Positions 3,568 to 22,335 of a stretch of 32,718 nt of DNA are shown here, in pieces. This DNA is from a bacterium. GTDB lineage: Bacteria > Zhuqueibacterota > Zhuqueibacteria > Residuimicrobiales > Krinioviventaceae. Each line of letters starts with the position of its first letter. Position 1 is the stretch's first letter. A program made the position numbers and the translations under genes. The notes beneath the pieces are model-generated. The model searched no databases and was not told the DNA's origin. It saw only the letters and a program-made list of their open reading frames with translations. The stretch is from assembly GCA_029561455.1 (NCBI GenBank), contig JAKQIY010000038.1:1-32718 (forward strand). Direction: 5' to 3'.

Positions 3568-6129
3568 ATGAAACAAAACGCAACAAGATCACAGGTCAGG
3601 TTTTTAATTTCATTCATCCTTCTGGTCATAATCTCGCTATCGTCCGGTAGCGGATTCTGCCAGGATAACGCCCTGAAACTCAATGACAAGGGTTATTTTA
3701 CTTCGCCGGCCTTTGATGTGCTGGTATTCGAAAACGAGTATAACGGCATGTTCTTTGACGAAAAGACCTCCGGCATTCTGCTCATTCACCACGGCGTGCG
3801 TATTGCCACCGGTGGCGCGCTGCGCCTGAAACCCACTCCGGAGCAGTGGGATCAGATCCCCACGGTGATCGAGCGCAAGGTGAATAAAGAAACCAACAGC
3901 ATCGACGTGCTGATGCGCTACAAAGATCTGGCATTCGATTCCCGCCTGCATGTGGAACCGCAGGGCAGCAATATTCTCATCAGTATAATACTTGACCAGC
4001 CCCTGCCGCAGAACCTGGAAGGCCGCGCCGGGCTGAACATCGAGTTCCTGCCCACCGAGTACTGGGAAAAAACCTACCTAATGGATGGCACAAGCGGCGT
4101 TTTCCCGCTGTATCCCTCCGGGCCGATGGAAGTGAAACCCGCCGCCACGCAGATCCAACAGTTCGCCGGGCATTTCACCTATGACGACCGCGGCCGCGGC
4201 GAGTATACTGAAGTGAAAGCGATTGCCGCCGGCAAAACTCTTATCCTCGCGCCGGAAGCGCCGGAACGCCGCCTCCAGATCACCTCTCTCGACGGTGAAC
4301 TGGGCCTGTACGACGGTCGTAACGTAGCGCAAAACGGCTGGTATGTTGTTCGCCAGTTGATTCCCGCCGGTAAAACCGGCAAGGTCGCCGAGTGGCTGGT
4401 AACGCCGAACCGTGTGCCGAACTGGGTGCGCACCCCCAATATCGGCCATTCCCAGTTGGGTTATTTGCCGAACCAGGAAAAAAGAGCGGTCATTGAACTG
4501 GATCCGAACGATAAACCCCTCAAAGAAGCGACGCTGCTGAAACTGAACGACAAGGGCGAATGGGTTTCCGCATTTCAAGGCGCAGTTAAAGAGTGGGGTA
4601 AATACCTGCGCTATCATTATGTTACCTTTGATTTTACGACTGTAAAGGAGCCGGGCTTGTACGCTATTCAATATGGCGCGCACAAAACCGAACCGTTCCA
4701 GATCGGCGCGCATATCTTTGATAATGCCTGGCAGCAGACGCTGGATGTGTGGTTCCCGGTGCAAATGGATCACATGTTCGTGAACGAAGGCTATCGCGTC
4801 TGGCACGGCGCGGCGCATCTCGATGACGCCCGCCAGGCCCCGCTCAATCACCAGCATTTTGACGGCTTTCAGATGGGCGAATCGACCGAAACCCAATACC
4901 AGCCCGGCGAACACGTCCCCGGCCTGAATATTGGCGGCTGGTTCGACGCCGGCGATTATGACATTCGCACCGGCTCGCATTGCCAGGCTATTACCGCATT
5001 AGTTAATGCCTGGGAACAGTTTAAGATCGACCGCGATGAAACGCTGGTCGATCAGAAACAACGCTATGTGGATATTCACCATCCCGACGGCGCCCCGGAT
5101 ATTTTGCAGCAAATTGAGCATGGTATTCTGGCCCAGGTCGCCCAGCATCGCGCCTTTGGCCGCGCCGCTACCACCATTGTCGAAGCGCACCTGCATCAAT
5201 ACCACCATCTTGGCGACGCTGTTAACATTACGGATAACCTGGTTTACAATCCGAATCTCAAATTGTACGAGAGCGACGGCTTTAGCAGCGGCACCCCGGA
5301 TGATCGCTGGGTATTTACCAATAAAACCCCCTTTAATAATTACGCATCCATCGGCGCCCTGGCCGCCTCCGCTCGCGCCCTGCGTGGTTACAATGACGCC
5401 CTGGCTGAAGAATGTTTGAATTTTGCGAAAAAAGCCTGGCAGGATGAGCAAGCCGCGCCGCCCCAGCCAACCCAGACCAGGTTCAGGTTTGGCGGCGCTA
5501 TGGAACTGGAACCCGCCCTGCAACTTTTTATTGCCACTAAAGACCAGCAGTACAGCGATATATTCCAGGAAAAGTTATGGCCGGCCATGGAAAAAGGCTC
5601 AAACTTTATGATCGAAACAGCGGTCAGCGCCGTGCCGTATATGGACAAATCATACCGCGATAAACTGGCGCCGTATATCAAAAAATATAAAGCGGCAAAC
5701 GATGAAATTTTCAAACAGAATCCTTATGGCGTAACCATTGGCACGGGCGGCTGGGCCGGCAACGGCGGCATTGTCGATTGGGCATGTACCAATTACCTGC
5801 TGCATAAAACCTTCCCGGAAATCATTAGCGCTGAATATACGCTGCGCGGCATATCCTATATTTTGGGCTGTCATCCGTATTCCAATGTTTCGTTTGTTTC
5901 CGGCGTCGGCACGCGCTCCAAGAAATACGCCTACGGTAATAATCGCGCGGATTTGAGCTTTATTGCAGGCGGCGTGGTGCCCGGCGTGCTGGTGCTGAAA
6001 CCGGATTTCCCGGAACACATGGAAGACTGGCCGTTTTTGTGGGGCGAAAATGAATATGTAATCGATATTTGCGCCCAGTATGTGTACCTGGCCAATGCGG
6101 CATTAGAGTTGGGTAAAGAATTGAAATAA
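3568..6129 (+). CDS. Glycoside hydrolase family 9 endoglucanase-type enzyme, secreted
   Basis: This exported protein of about 853 residues is predicted to cut beta-glucans. I start it at 3568, not at the upstream in-frame ATG 3523, because MKQNATRSQVRFLISFILL begins a proper signal peptide ending near GFCQ, with a GGGAG site just upstream. Residues ~25-285 form a beta-rich N-terminal domain I cannot name. Residues ~290-380 look like the Ig-like CelD_N module that precedes many GH9 domains. The catalytic (alpha/alpha)6 domain follows, with WFDAGDYD (Asp460 and Asp463), the late block GCHPYSNVSFVSGVG, and a C-terminal WGENEYVID that should hold the general acid Glu. No sorting tail or dockerin is present. 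A hairpin terminator follows directly. Confidence 0.9.
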   Translation: MKQNATRSQVRFLISFILLVIISLSSGSGFCQDNALKLNDKGYFTSPAFDVLVFENEYNGMFFDEKTSGILLIHHGVRIATGGALRLKPTPEQWDQIPTVIERKVNKETNSIDVLMRYKDLAFDSRLHVEPQGSNILISIILDQPLPQNLEGRAGLNIEFLPTEYWEKTYLMDGTSGVFPLYPSGPMEVKPAATQIQQFAGHFTYDDRGRGEYTEVKAIAAGKTLILAPEAPERRLQITSLDGELGLYDGRNVAQNGWYVVRQLIPAGKTGKVAEWLVTPNRVPNWVRTPNIGHSQLGYLPNQEKRAVIELDPNDKPLKEATLLKLNDKGEWVSAFQGAVKEWGKYLRYHYVTFDFTTVKEPGLYAIQYGAHKTEPFQIGAHIFDNAWQQTLDVWFPVQMDHMFVNEGYRVWHGAAHLDDARQAPLNHQHFDGFQMGESTETQYQPGEHVPGLNIGGWFDAGDYDIRTGSHCQAITALVNAWEQFKIDRDETLVDQKQRYVDIHHPDGAPDILQQIEHGILAQVAQHRAFGRAATTIVEAHLHQYHHLGDAVNITDNLVYNPNLKLYESDGFSSGTPDDRWVFTNKTPFNNYASIGALAASARALRGYNDALAEECLNFAKKAWQDEQAAPPQPTQTRFRFGGAMELEPALQLFIATKDQQYSDIFQEKLWPAMEKGSNFMIETAVSAVPYMDKSYRDKLAPYIKKYKAANDEIFKQNPYGVTIGTGGWAGNGGIVDWACTNYLLHKTFPEIISAEYTLRGISYILGCHPYSNVSFVSGVGTRSKKYAYGNNRADLSFIAGGVVPGVLVLKPDFPEHMEDWPFLWGENEYVIDICAQYVYLANAALELGKELK

Positions 6130-6150
6130 TAATTTTTTAACAGAACGTAG

Positions 6151-6200
6151 AGCCGGTTCCCGCTGTTCGGATAGGGAACCGGCTTTATATTTGTTCTTTA
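6151..6200 (+). terminator. Rho-independent terminator after the GH9 gene
   Basis: A perfect 11-base stem, AGCCGGTTCCC at 6151-6161 pairing with GGGAACCGGCT at 6174-6184, has a 12-base loop and is followed by a T-rich tract. It lies 21 bases after the GH9 stop, so GH9 is probably transcribed alone. Confidence 0.8.
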
Positions 6201-6352
6201 TAGTGTATCTTACGATTCCAATCTCCTGATTGGAATCCATTTGTATAAAATCTCTGCTTTAAAGAACGCACGGACTAACAATATTTAACAAGTGATCAGA
6301 GATTGCAGGCAAACGCGTTTCAAATCCAAAGATGATAAAAAGAAAAGATGAT

Positions 6353-10172: not shown

Positions 10173-10613
10173 ATGTTAAACTACAACACCCTTGAAGAAG
10201 CTTTTATGTTTGTTAGTTCCGGTATGCAACATGAAAATTATGCCGTAATCAACAAAAAAACCGGGGAAATACATTACCGGGGAGACGTGATAGACAGCGG
10301 CGACCTGTTTGCGGACGATGATAGCGAAGATGAAGACGATGAAGAATTTTTGGGCGATAATTACGTCTACGTGCCGCATAAAAACGACCTGGACTTGGGC
10401 AGGAAACTGGTCTTTGATTTTGTAGCGCAATACCTGCCGGACATGTATAACGAGGTTGAACGCATATTCCGTAGCAGAGGCGCTTATAGCCGTTTTAAAG
10501 CGCTGTTGGATGCTGAAAATCAGTTGCAAAACTGGTACAACTATGAAAACGAACGTACCAAAGCCGCGCTTCTGGAATGGTGTAAAGATAACGGTCTGGA
10601 AGTACAGGATTAA
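10173..10613 (+). CDS. UPF0158 family protein
   Basis: This acidic cytosolic protein has about 146 residues. I start it at 10173 (MLNYNTLEEAF) because AAAGAGG lies eight bases before; the in-frame ATG at 10152 would add seven residues without such a site. The family signature is visible: YAVINKKTGEIHYRG near the start, a run of Asp and Glu at ~47-56, then YVYVPHKNDLDLGRKLVFDF, and the C-terminal RSRGAYSRFKALL...WYNYENERTKAALLEW. Members have no established biochemical role and no catalytic motif is evident. It stands alone between GH97 and a lipoprotein gene, and nothing in the surroundings explains its job. Confidence 0.8.
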   Translation: MLNYNTLEEAFMFVSSGMQHENYAVINKKTGEIHYRGDVIDSGDLFADDDSEDEDDEEFLGDNYVYVPHKNDLDLGRKLVFDFVAQYLPDMYNEVERIFRSRGAYSRFKALLDAENQLQNWYNYENERTKAALLEWCKDNGLEVQD

Positions 10614-10918
10614 GAATAAGATGCCATCGCGTCAGGTCATCTGGCTTGGCGCAAATCATTCCAGCCTCCGGCTGAGATTTCACAAAAATCAAAATATCTC
10701 TTGCATTTATCCGTTATAATTGATTATTTTATCGGCATCCGACACGATTACCATTACCAGGGCGCAGTTTTGCTGTATATTTGAATATTTTGGTTTTGCA
10801 ATATATAAATGATACTCTATATATGCCTCACTTGTCACAAGGGCGACATAAAACAATGAATATTTACAAATGTTATGCGTAAATCATTATACCAATACCA
10901 TTAATAGCAAATACTGTC
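10614..10918. other. Intergenic stretch, no gene seen
   Basis: About 305 bases between the UPF0158 gene and the lipoprotein gene hold no supported ORF. One short stem (CAGCC TCC GGCTG, near 10661-10673) is visible without a T tract. The last ~120 bases are AT-rich and presumably carry the lipoprotein promoter. Confidence 0.35.
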
Positions 10919-11371
10919 ATGCGAAAAACCGGTATTATATCCGTCCTTTTTCTTTTGCTCCTGATTGCTTGTCATTCGGATCAGGAAATGAATGTGTACG
11001 ACGGATTTGAATCCGATCAACTGAGCAATATCTGGAACATGGAAAAAATACTGCCCGGCGCTTTACAGATTCAATCGACCTGCGTTCATACCGGCAAGCG
11101 CGCCGCAAAAATCACTTTATACCGCCAAACGGAAGACATTCGCGACCGGTGGTTGAATTTCAGATTCCAAATTCGCTTTTCCAGAACCCCGCAGGGCCGA
11201 ATCCAGGCCTGGCTGATTGACCGGGAAATCATTAATTATAGCGGCGTCACGGCGTACTCGCAAGAGTATGGCTACCCCACACCGAGTTATTTCTATTTTA
11301 AAATGGGATTGCACAGGGATCAGTTTACACTGCCGATGACTATATATATGACTAAAAGAAACAGAAAGTAG
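10919..11371 (+). pseudogene. Polysaccharide-lyase-like lipoprotein, internally shortened
   Basis: The reading frame is open for 150 residues. A lipoprotein signal (FLLLLIAC, Cys18) leads to YDGFESDQLSNIWNMEK and SGK-type text HTGKRAAKITLY, which match the start of the Polysacc_lyase family (concanavalin A-like fold). The text then jumps at about residues 74-78 to WLNFRFQIRFSRTPQGRIQAWLIDREIINYSG and YFYFKMGLHRDQF, which belong to the end of the same domain. The middle strands, roughly a hundred residues in intact members, are absent, so an in-frame deletion is likely and the product is probably inactive. The end is also abrupt: after TIYM comes a basic tail from a TA-rich run near 11340-11350, where DNY-type residues would be expected. 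A genuinely small relative cannot be excluded. Confidence 0.6.
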
Positions 11372-18299: not shown

Positions 18300-20012
18300 T
18301 TAAAACCCCATGATCTTGCAATCAATGATCTTTTGCGGGGAGACGTTGACATCGTCTTTGGCTCTTATAATATATTTTACATACTCTTTATCTACACCAT
18401 GAATTTTAAAATTAATCAGATCGTTCATAGATAAATTCTTCAGGCCGGTTGAATAAATACCGCGGATAAATTCCGGCGAAACACCCTGAATGGTCAGTTC
18501 GACAATTTTCGAAGCCGGAATATTTTTATAGCCCAATTCATTCAAGGCGGATATTAATTCCGGTTCCACACCGTGTATTTTAAATTCTACCAGCCTGGAC
18601 AGGGGAATATCCTTAAAGCCGGCGGCATGGATTTGCCGGATATATTCCGGGGATACACCCTGAATGCTCAATTCTATCAATCGCGAAGGCTCGATATCAT
18701 TATAACCCAGGTCGCGCATCGTTCTGATCAATTCCGGGTCAACATCATGTATTTTGAATTCAACCAGTCGGGATATGGGGATACCTTTAAATCCTGCGGC
18801 ATGCATTTGCCGGACATAATCGGGTGTTACTCCCTGAATGGTCAACTCGACCAATGTTTCGGGATTGATATCGGTATTGCCCAGGTCGCGCAGGATTTTT
18901 ACCAGTTCGGGATTAACGCCATGGATTTTAAATTCCACCAGGCGGGACAGAGGAATATCCTTATAGCCGGCTTCATGGATTCGCCGGATATAATCGGGCG
19001 ACACCCCCTGAATTTTTAATTCGATGATGTGTGATTTGGATATATCGGTATAACCCAGATCAGCCAGGGCTTTTAAATAATCCGGAGTTACACCCTGAAT
19101 CTTGAATTCCACCAGGTCGGATAAATCCAGATCACGGAATCCGGCGGCATGAACCTGCCGGATATAGTCCGGTGAAACACCCTGAATTGTTAATTCAACT
19201 ATTTTGGAAGGCGATATATCGGCATAACCCAGTTCATGCAAAGCTTTGACCAGTTCCGGCTTGACATCGTGAATTTTAAATTCAACCAACCGCGACATGG
19301 GGATATTTTTAAAACCCTGTAAATCCATTTCTTTAATGTATTGGGGGGTAACACCGTGAATTTTAAAAGCGATCAAATCATCCGCCGATATATCGGTATA
19401 CCCCAAACGTGACAATTCCTGAATAAAGTCGATACTTACATCATGAATCCGAAAGCTGACCATGTCATCAACAGATACATCCTTGTAACCGAGGGAATGC
19501 AGCTTTTTGATAAAGTCAATATTCACGTTAAAAATGGCCATAGAGACCAGTTTCGAGCCCTCGATACCCGCATAACCCAGCCTGGTGAGTTCCCCGATAT
19601 ATTTTGTATTAACATCGGCCAGGCATAACAGCAACATATCTTTCTCATTGATACGTCCAAAACCATTTTTATGCAAGAATGCGGAGAAATCTTTATCGGG
19701 AGTAAAGGTAAAAACCCCAAAGCCTTTTTTGCCGGAATTTTTGCCCTCAAAGGTGATTATCCCGGCGTCCCGCTGCAGGGTAAAAGGTTGATTGGAATCC
19801 ATTTGCAGGTTTTTAAAATCCCGCTTGCTGAATTCATTGGAATAATTCCAATTGTTTTTATCCCAAAAGCCATCTTCAATCTTTAAAGACAAACGCACGC
19901 TATCGCTGCTGAACCTGGCCGTCCAGTCCCCTTCCACATCCCAGGCAGCGCATGCCTGACCGGCGCCACCGATGAGCAAAAATAATACAATTATTATATA
20001 ATATGGTTTCAT
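18300..20012 (-). CDS. Exported protein with sixteen ~29-residue tandem repeats
   Basis: This 570-residue protein has a signal peptide (MKPYYIIIVLFLLIGGAGQACA) and a beta-rich N-terminal domain at ~23-107. From residue 108 to the end it is made of sixteen repeats: a diverged first unit of 27 residues, fourteen of 29, and a last one of 30. The consensus is xPxYIxxLxxLGYxDIxxSxLVEFKIHGV. Units 5-15 alternate between a PELVKALxELGY...IVELTIQGV form and a PDYIRQIHAAGF...LVEFKIHGV form, so the true period is 58 residues (174 bases). The helix-loop-helix solenoid suggests protein binding in the periplasm. An AGGAG site precedes the ATG. Upstream, at 20117-20128, lies a copy of the motif found upstream of the ECF sigma gene, so it is likely a target of that sigma factor. 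Confidence 0.85.
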   Translation of the reverse strand: MKPYYIIIVLFLLIGGAGQACAAWDVEGDWTARFSSDSVRLSLKIEDGFWDKNNWNYSNEFSKRDFKNLQMDSNQPFTLQRDAGIITFEGKNSGKKGFGVFTFTPDKDFSAFLHKNGFGRINEKDMLLLCLADVNTKYIGELTRLGYAGIEGSKLVSMAIFNVNIDFIKKLHSLGYKDVSVDDMVSFRIHDVSIDFIQELSRLGYTDISADDLIAFKIHGVTPQYIKEMDLQGFKNIPMSRLVEFKIHDVKPELVKALHELGYADISPSKIVELTIQGVSPDYIRQVHAAGFRDLDLSDLVEFKIQGVTPDYLKALADLGYTDISKSHIIELKIQGVSPDYIRRIHEAGYKDIPLSRLVEFKIHGVNPELVKILRDLGNTDINPETLVELTIQGVTPDYVRQMHAAGFKGIPISRLVEFKIHDVDPELIRTMRDLGYNDIEPSRLIELSIQGVSPEYIRQIHAAGFKDIPLSRLVEFKIHGVEPELISALNELGYKNIPASKIVELTIQGVSPEFIRGIYSTGLKNLSMNDLINFKIHGVDKEYVKYIIRAKDDVNVSPQKIIDCKIMGF

Positions 20013-20094: not shown

Positions 20095-20128
20095 CTAAAC
20101 CGACCCACTGCTAAATGGTTACAAAAAT
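20095..20128 (-). promoter_or_regulatory. Candidate ECF-type promoter for the repeat-protein gene
   Basis: On the minus strand ATTTTTGTAACC (20128-20117) is followed after 15 bases by GGTT. The same 12 bases and the same spacing to GGTT occur upstream of the sigma gene (21554-21543). GTAACC resembles the -35 box of ECF promoters. The predicted start site would leave a leader of about 70 bases. No transcript data support it. Confidence 0.5.
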
Positions 20129-20133
20129 TCATA

Positions 20134-20937
20134 TCAAATCAATGTTAAAATTGTTTTCTCAATTTTTTCACGTACCTGGGACTCTAAAACCCGGGTTTTC
20201 AGTAGCGTTTGCATAGGCGCAACGGACGATTTCTCCTGCAACGTCAGCATCACATCCGCCAGCAACAACAGCACCTGCGAATCATACTGCGTACTGATCG
20301 CCTGCACCAGCCCGGCGCGCACCAGGGGTTTATCAGCAAAGCGTTGCAGTGTTTTAATCGCGACCAGGCGCACATTAACATTCGGATCGTTATGCAAAGT
20401 TTGCAACAAGGCATAAATGACCGCATCTTGAGCGGTATCCAAACTGGCTGCCTGATAAATACCCTGTAATCGCTCCGCCGGGGAGGAATGAGTAAGCAAG
20501 GTCAGCGTCAACATGGTTTTCATATTGGCAATTTCAGTATTCATGCTGTTTATTTGCCGGTTATAATCTGTTTTCGGCGTCAGCCAGTACCCGGCGCCCC
20601 AGCCTGAAAAAAACAGTAAAAGACTAAAAGCCAACACTGCGGCAAACCGCCAGACATTGGTTTGAACTAGTCCCTGTAAAAAGGTCGCTTTACCGGACGG
20701 CCTTTCAGCCGGGCGGTTAGAAAAAGCAGAGAGCATTGTATAAAAATTATCCGTCATCCTTTCACCGGGATCGGGAATTGCCAATTCCGATAGCCCTGCC
20801 GTTACTTTTTCCAGTTCGGCAAGTTCCTGCCCGCTCATACCCGCATCAAGTAACTTGTGCTTTATTTCTAACTTTTTATCAAGATCATTGCGGCATTCAA
20901 GATATGCCAGCGCCAGATCTTCAATATTATTTTTCAT
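20134..20937 (-). CDS. Anti-sigma factor-like membrane protein with HEAT-type C terminus
   Basis: This 267-residue protein has a cytosolic N-terminal half (~1-92), one membrane helix at ~93-117 (WRFAAVLAFSLLLFFSGWGAGYWL), and an outside HEAT-like helical region at ~155-267 (NVRLVAIKTLQRFADKPLVRAGL). Its start overlaps the 3' end of the ECF sigma gene by 11 bases, so they are translationally coupled. By this arrangement it should bind and hold the sigma factor at the membrane, releasing it on an outside signal. No Cys/His zinc motif of the ZAS type is evident. The repeat-protein gene lies downstream on the same strand and is a possible partner in sensing. Confidence 0.75.
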   Translation of the reverse strand: MKNNIEDLALAYLECRNDLDKKLEIKHKLLDAGMSGQELAELEKVTAGLSELAIPDPGERMTDNFYTMLSAFSNRPAERPSGKATFLQGLVQTNVWRFAAVLAFSLLLFFSGWGAGYWLTPKTDYNRQINSMNTEIANMKTMLTLTLLTHSSPAERLQGIYQAASLDTAQDAVIYALLQTLHNDPNVNVRLVAIKTLQRFADKPLVRAGLVQAISTQYDSQVLLLLADVMLTLQEKSSVAPMQTLLKTRVLESQVREKIEKTILTLI

Positions 20938-21484
20938 AACATTTGTCCATTTGCATAAAAATATCTTTTAATTCCATCAGCGCCCGAAACACCTTTATTT
21001 TCACATTATTTTCGGAACAGCCCAGAATTTCACCTATCTCTTTATATTTTAATTGCTGATACTTGCATAAAATCAACAATTCTCGCTTTTCTGCATGCAT
21101 TTGCAGTAACGCTTTTTCCAAAAGCTGTAATTGCTCTTCCCTGATAATTTCACAGTCGCCGGTAGCCTCCTCAGCCAGATCATAGCCGCTAAAATCATCT
21201 ACAGCCTTGTAACGGTTATTCCGGTTACAATGGTCTATAAAAACATTATGGGCAACCTGGTACATCCAGATATGAAATTCACCATAACCGGTAAAATTGT
21301 GCCGGTATTTGAGCAGGCGCAGGAATACATTTTGAACCAGGTCTTCGCTGCCGTGCAAATCCCTGCCCAGGCGGTAAAAATAGGCAAACAGAGGCTTTTT
21401 ATAGCGTTCAAACAGCAGGCCCAGTTTTTCGAGGTCGCCGTTCCTCACCAGGAGCATTACTTCATTATCGGAATAGGGTTCCAT
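20927..21484 (-). CDS. ECF-type RNA polymerase sigma factor
   Basis: This protein of 185 residues contains sigma region 2 (LFERYKKPLFAYFYRLGRDLHGSEDLVQNVFLRLLKY, then FHIWMYQVAHNVFIDHCNRN). It also has region 4 (LLILCKYQQLKYKEIGEILGCSENNVKIKVFRALMEL). ECF factors direct polymerase to stress or surface genes. I use ATG 21484 (MEPYSDNEV) because the longer frame needs a TTG at 21517, which would lie before the start site predicted from the upstream motif. Neither start has a clear ribosome-binding site. Its 3' end overlaps the anti-sigma gene by 11 bases. The matched motif at 21543-21554 suggests it controls its own gene. Confidence 0.9.
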   Translation of the reverse strand: MEPYSDNEVMLLVRNGDLEKLGLLFERYKKPLFAYFYRLGRDLHGSEDLVQNVFLRLLKYRHNFTGYGEFHIWMYQVAHNVFIDHCNRNNRYKAVDDFSGYDLAEEATGDCEIIREEQLQLLEKALLQMHAEKRELLILCKYQQLKYKEIGEILGCSENNVKIKVFRALMELKDIFMQMDKCYEK

Positions 21485-21520
21485 TTTTAACCATTTTTTA
21501 GAGTCATAACATACCAATCT

Positions 21521-21554
21521 TATAACCCGGTTGCAAGCAAAAGGTTACAAAAAT
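21521..21554 (-). promoter_or_regulatory. Candidate autoregulated ECF promoter upstream of the sigma gene
   Basis: On the minus strand ATTTTTGTAACC (21554-21543) is followed by 15 bases and then GGTT. This 12-mer is identical to that at 20128-20117. If GTAACC is the -35 box, transcription should begin near 21511, which leaves a ~27-base leader before ATG 21484. This is inference from matching sites. Confidence 0.5.
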
Positions 21555-21768: not shown

Positions 21769-22335
21769 ATGAAAAGCATAATTATTATTACCCTGGTCAT
21801 GGTATTGAACATTACCGCAGGATTTTCGCAAAATCCATCTACAGAAACCCGTAATGCCATCAACAAATACCTTACCGCTCTTAATGACAAAGATGTAGCA
21901 GTGCGCTTACAGGCCTTAAAATTACTAAATGATTTGAAAACCCTGTACCCGGATTACCAGATGAAAGAGTTTGACACGTTTCTATCATCACAAATCATGC
22001 AGACAGCTACCAAAGGATGGATTGCCGCGCTAGCATCGGATGTGCCAGGAGTAAGACATAGTACATTACATGTGCTGGTGCGTTTGAAATCCGATTTCCC
22101 GAAACTGGACATGAGCGTATTCAACAACGCGCTAAAAAAAATGAGCGATAAAGATAAGCAGCTACATCTTCAGGTCGATGCCAAAATTGCTTTTATTTAT
22201 CTCAACAGTTCCGAGTTGGCTGCAACTATTAAAATCCAGGAAGATATGGCGCCTGGTGATGTGTTTACCATTATCCATAGTGAAATGGATGTTTTATTTC
22301 AAAACAATAACCCCATAGCAGCAAACCTGGAATAA
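21769..22335 (+). CDS. Exported HEAT-like helical protein, hypothetical
   Basis: This 188-residue protein has a signal peptide (MKSIIIITLVMVLNITAGFSQ). The mature part is all helical, with two HEAT-like blocks: VAVRLQALKLLNDLKTLYPDYQM at ~44-65 and PGVRHSTLHVLVRLKSDFPKLDM at ~95-117. A strong ribosome-binding site, ACAGGAG, precedes the ATG. It is divergent from the sigma gene and shares helical-repeat style with the anti-sigma C terminus, so a role in the same envelope response is possible. No matching ECF motif was seen upstream. No enzymatic motif is present. A strong terminator follows. Confidence 0.7.
   Translation: MKSIIIITLVMVLNITAGFSQNPSTETRNAINKYLTALNDKDVAVRLQALKLLNDLKTLYPDYQMKEFDTFLSSQIMQTATKGWIAALASDVPGVRHSTLHVLVRLKSDFPKLDMSVFNNALKKMSDKDKQLHLQVDAKIAFIYLNSSELAATIKIQEDMAPGDVFTIIHSEMDVLFQNNNPIAANLE

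Follow-up and report, generated by a model that had tools for sequence, protein, structure and literature searches.

Predicted promoters of a shared two-box form before an ECF sigma factor gene and an exported 29-residue-repeat protein gene

The window, a stretch of 32,718 nucleotides of bacterial DNA (contig JAKQIY010000038.1), carries the same 12-base motif upstream of an ECF sigma factor gene and of a nearby gene for an exported repeat protein. We asked whether the two copies are promoters and which sigma factor reads them. From comparison with related genomes, a stress-response sigma factor very probably uses the repeated motif as its on-switch. The features concerned are these:

21521..21549, minus strand: predicted promoter 1, upstream of the sigma gene; -35 TGTAACC (21549-21543), N16, -10 GTTATA (21526-21521)
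20927..21484, minus strand: ECF sigma factor, 185 aa, ATG at 21484; Pfam Sigma70_r2 (4e-14) and Sigma70_r4_2 (3e-13)
20134..20937, minus strand: candidate anti-sigma factor, 267 aa, overlapping the sigma gene; homologous to zf-HC2 plus HEAT anti-sigmas
20095..20123, minus strand: predicted promoter 2, upstream of the repeat-protein gene; -35 TGTAACC (20123-20117), N16, -10 GTTTAG (20100-20095)
18300..20012, minus strand: exported repeat protein, 570 aa; signal peptide, beta-rich N-terminal domain and 14 tandem 29-residue units (residues 159-564)

The sigma ATG lies ~40 bases downstream of the -10 of promoter 1. Promoter 2 comes directly after the anti-sigma stop codon, in the 121-base gap between the anti-sigma and repeat genes, and ~85 bases separate its -10 from the repeat-gene ATG, which is preceded by an AGGAG ribosome site.

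The sigma factor consists of Sigma70_r2 (residues 23-90) and Sigma70_r4_2 (residues 119-171) joined by a short linker, with no other domains, as is required of ECF group IV; the AAC -35 and GT-containing -10 that this group has before its own gene are found at 21549-21521 as TGTAACC-N16-GTTATA. Its relatives in the PDB are SigE, SigH and SigW. AAC at -35, CGT at -10 and positive autoregulation have been described as hallmarks of ECF sigma factors (PMC8103513), and the shape of the predicted boxes agrees with that description. The anti-sigma has N-terminal helices, a single transmembrane helix predicted at about residues 95-116 and a C-terminal HEAT domain; in its AF2 model (pLDDT 70) the C-terminal half matches HEAT/ARM-type folds with Z about 14. 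Class I anti-sigmas are encoded with their sigma and have an N-terminal three-helix bundle plus a fourth helix; here the modelled N-terminal helices span residues 3-14, 19-31, 36-51 and 63-73, with low confidence past residue 50. A further HEAT-like protein, exported, is encoded at 21769-22335 (plus strand), divergently from the sigma gene.

Direct reading of the minus strand confirms the initial annotation on the motif itself: ATTTTTGTAACC occurs at 21554-21543 and 20128-20117, with GGTT 15 bases past GTAACC at both. The annotation had noticed no other intergenic copy, and no third copy of ATTTTTGTAACC was found anywhere in the window at up to one mismatch. In a pattern search of the 5.85 Mb genome, TTTTTGTAACC-N15-GGTT was unique to the two sites. 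The ATTTTTGTAACC 12-mer taken alone is weak evidence, because 0.55 matches at one mismatch or fewer are expected in a shuffled window, two or more were reached in 11 of 100 shuffles, and some 12-mer is common to ~0.5% of unrelated 150-nt upstream pairs, of which the window has more than 200. Two occurrences of TGTAAC-N14-18-GGTT were reached in 1 of 100 shuffles. Genome-wide, the loose pattern TGTAAC-N15-17-GGTT gave 58 matches against 47 for its reversed control, so it is unspecific and cannot decide the promoter question; the scan with a loose motif that had been proposed as a check thus runs at background level and would have led to a wrong rejection of the promoter idea. TGTAACYWWTY-N12-GT gave 8 matches in the same genome and 9 in the control, and therefore a large regulon is not visible with this pattern there. 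Over 63 genomes, TAACCTTTT-N12-GTNTA gave 11 matches, below the reversed control, five of them at sigma genes of this group. Neither this pattern nor the covariance-type model described below revealed a large regulon.

Conservation in place was more informative. Searching the 63 genomes of the class with an anti-sigma profile gave ~20 near-full-length homologues, including a sister copy on contig C51 of the same genome. In almost all loci they belong to a canonical operon found across the class: sigma, a zf-HC2/HEAT anti-sigma, then one or two exported Toastrack (DUF4097-like) proteins. The C51 copy (L077) is canonical, although its Toastrack Pfam matches fall just below the gathering cut-off. 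A two-box element of the form AAC[C/T]-T-rich-N12-GT lies upstream of sigma in 18 of 19 readable loci, which span many families of the class and include one from a different class. Within the class set it is seen in 17 of 18 sigma upstreams; the exception, L081, has only the -35 box intact. At L076 (3745-3770) the -35 box TGTAACCTTTT is doubled in tandem upstream of the sigma gene, 13 bases apart.

A matrix of 26 bits was prepared from 15 relatives' sites, leaving out the window and G025 (Calditrichaeota bacterium CLD2 25). AAC and GT are invariant in these aligned sites and the spacing is fixed at 16 bases. In leave-one-out runs the true site ranked first in 15 of 15 loci, ranks that are somewhat optimistic because the canonical sites had first been gathered by regular expression; the window sites, those of another genome (G078) and the 26-gene control described below were outside the training set. 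In the window, the relatives' matrix placed promoter 1 second and promoter 2 third of 65,370 positions. A covariance-type sequence model gave the two sites E of about 0.04 and 0.7 within the window and listed neither genome-wide, where it ranked the C51 promoter, itself a training site, first and a site on contig C26 second; they are missed because the variant branch has drifted from the canonical -10. What is kept between species is TG[T/C]AACC-N16-GT. The ECF reading of the boxes given in the initial annotation therefore holds at the conserved positions but not in its GGTT: the GG before TT appears incidental, and by this alignment the -10 consists of GT at N16 and the A/T-rich bases after it. 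Four genomes with 30 ECF sigma genes between them served as a specificity control: G[T/C]AACC-N16-GT stands upstream of 4/4 of this group and 0/26 others. Since it is missing before the 26 other genes, the element is a promoter peculiar to this group, not something common to ECF promoters or AT-rich DNA at large.

The window belongs to a variant of the canonical operon that was also found in G025 and G078, and comprises sigma, an anti-sigma without zinc ligands and the exported 29-residue-repeat protein. G025 has the same gene order, with 51% identity to the window sigma, 34% to the anti-sigma and about 41-42% to the repeat protein; TGTAACC-N16-GT lies upstream of both its sigma gene and its repeat gene, the latter site ranking first of 37,936 positions by the matrix. 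The third cluster, in G078, a genome of another class, came from a phylum-wide repeat-protein search (82 genomes) in which its repeat-protein orthologue scored E 3e-138. Its gene order is sigma, anti-sigma, one Toastrack protein and repeat protein, with TGCAACC-N16-GTGTTA upstream of sigma and TGCAACC-N16-GTGATA upstream of the repeat gene, the top two plus-strand matrix sites in 14 kb. Both promoters are thus present in 3/3 variant clusters, the evidence for promoter 2 coming from these three loci, where an equally good site would fall by chance in the 200 nt before the repeat gene with a probability of about 0.008, 0.004 and 0.024. The T/C position agrees between both sites of each genome (TGT in the window and G025, TGC in G078). 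The window and G025 sigma and anti-sigma fall in a clade of their own, with full support, outside the canonical operons. No Toastrack (DUF4097) gene was found at the window or G025 loci; the one kept in G078 (L157, reverse-strand coordinates 5507-6280) lies between the anti-sigma and repeat genes, possibly an arrangement intermediate between canonical and variant operon. Anti-sigmas of the zf-HC2 family are defined by a zinc-binding Hx3Cx2C motif (PMC7406223). Neither that motif nor a Cys pair was found in the anti-sigmas of the window, G025 and G078, although most canonical relatives have it; class I anti-sigmas without zinc are common (PMC7406223). Homologues of the divergent HEAT-like protein at 21769-22335 were not found in the G025 or G078 clusters.

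Because the promoter lies before both the sigma gene and the repeat gene in the window, G025 and G078, the promoter reading and the three-gene unit are both supported. Drawing on the positions of the sites, their conservation, their group specificity and the gene order, all read directly from the genomes compared, we consider it highly probable that both motifs are promoters of the ECF sigma factor (20927-21484), promoter 1 for sigma and anti-sigma with positive feedback and promoter 2 for the repeat protein. The autoregulation and co-control suggested in the initial annotation gain support from the sites kept in place among relatives and missing before 26 other ECF sigma genes, and its three-gene unit from the same variant cluster recurring in the three genomes.

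Other readings have to be weighed against this one. Both promoters could be real and yet be read mainly by another ECF sigma, for instance the C51 sister, making a cross-regulated set and not a self-contained unit. The C51 operon does carry a promoter like these (GGCAACCTTTT-N12-GTCTATA), so sequence does not settle which of the two sigmas reads promoter 2. On C26 a near-perfect site precedes the gene of an exported 204-aa protein, whose orthologue in G001 keeps TGTAACCTTT...GT at the same spacing; as G001 lacks a sigma of this group, other sigmas may read similar boxes. We nevertheless regard the reading as unlikely: both promoters are kept in G025 and G078, where the variant sigma is the sole member of this group, and the T/C letter agrees at both sites in each genome. 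The C26 site itself (TTGTAACCTTTTTCCCTCGCTACCGTTTATATA, G000:C26:89463-89494; L087, L121) is a near-perfect canonical promoter ~80 bases before the GGFGGP protein. We do not count that protein as a third target, since a similar site is kept by the same-genus orthologue only, in a genome without this sigma group; single matches elsewhere are, for the same reason, not to be assigned to the window sigma.

That promoter 1 is real while the repeat gene's copy arose by chance, the gene being transcribed by read-through or from a housekeeping promoter, would fit the facts that a 12-mer common to two upstreams is not rare and that the loose pattern is at genome background. It is very improbable, given that two other genomes have the same site in the same place within otherwise unlike intergenic sequences and that the product of the chances at the three loci is about 1e-6. 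The idea that the motif has nothing to do with sigma recognition, being a repressor operator or some general AT-rich element, has only a low-complexity T tract in its favour and can practically be dismissed: there are two boxes at a fixed 16-base spacing with AAC and GT invariant, and they are missing before the 26 other ECF genes.

If both motifs are promoters of the window sigma, the unit would work as follows. At rest the membrane anti-sigma would hold the sigma. An envelope signal, presumably sensed via the extracytoplasmic HEAT domain of the anti-sigma, would free it, and the freed sigma would bind promoter 1, raising its own operon in a positive feedback loop, and promoter 2, which would drive the repeat protein separately. 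The variant would then be a branch of a class-wide autoregulated ECF system whose usual cargo is two exported Toastrack proteins, and whose cargo here would be, or include, the repeat protein, served by a separate promoter copy.

Each of the 14 repeat units is exactly 29 residues long. The AF2 model of the repeat protein has pLDDT 45, at which a fold search is not interpretable, and its sequence similarity to a chain of a designed nanocage (E 2e-11) was taken as helical-repeat likeness only. The same repeat (profile E 1.6e-104) is fused to an M56/BlaR1 peptidase (Pfam Peptidase_M56) in genome G061 (L105, G061:C407, 7161-9776), and a short protein encoded after that peptidase gene (10535-11206) has the same N-terminal domain and repeats. 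Outside the phylum, an exported protein of the family is encoded in an Alteromonadaceae MAG (L104, 5875-6960); no sigma or anti-sigma of this group was recognised beside it. The repeat is one module under two kinds of regulators, the ECF sigma unit and, in G061, the M56 peptidase. The protein may be an effector or a sensor. More speculatively, and with low probability, the repeat solenoid may be the regulator's partner as well as an output, binding the anti-sigma at its extracytoplasmic HEAT domain and setting the threshold of sigma release, the two helical-repeat surfaces forming the sensor and the promoter pair a built-in feedback loop.

Sigma2 plus sigma4 domains, a co-encoded membrane anti-sigma and an AAC -35/GT -10 promoter before its own sigma gene are features that the unit shares with autoregulated ECF systems having class I anti-sigmas, of the RpoE/RseA and SigW/RsiW type; unlike these, its anti-sigma has a C-terminal HEAT domain and no Hx3Cx2C, and a second promoter copy serves the exported repeat protein. 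With the class-wide ECF-HEAT-Toastrack operon it shares homologous sigma and anti-sigma and the promoter type, but its branch is a separate clade to which the repeat protein and second promoter have been added. The M56/BlaR1-type peptidase of G061 has the same repeats, but fused to a peptidase sensor and with no ECF sigma of this group adjoining. Toastrack proteins have been proposed to partner envelope stress systems (PMC11237479). This fits an envelope role, although the same paper predicts an intracellular location for the domain. No description of this operon was found in the literature searched; the system is a variant of the familiar autoregulated ECF sigma/anti-sigma unit and not a new class.

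For a sigma group of a poorly studied phylum, the analysis predicts a promoter code from sequence alone, tested in relatives, and it links an uncharacterised family of 29-residue-repeat proteins to envelope-type regulation. The variant is an example of cargo exchange by an ECF unit: G078 has a Toastrack gene as well as the repeat gene, before which a separate copy of the promoter stands. The six sites in three genomes are ready-made constructs for tests of sigma-promoter coevolution. If the repeat solenoid is indeed the regulator's partner, M56 peptidase sensors elsewhere would use this repeat module too.
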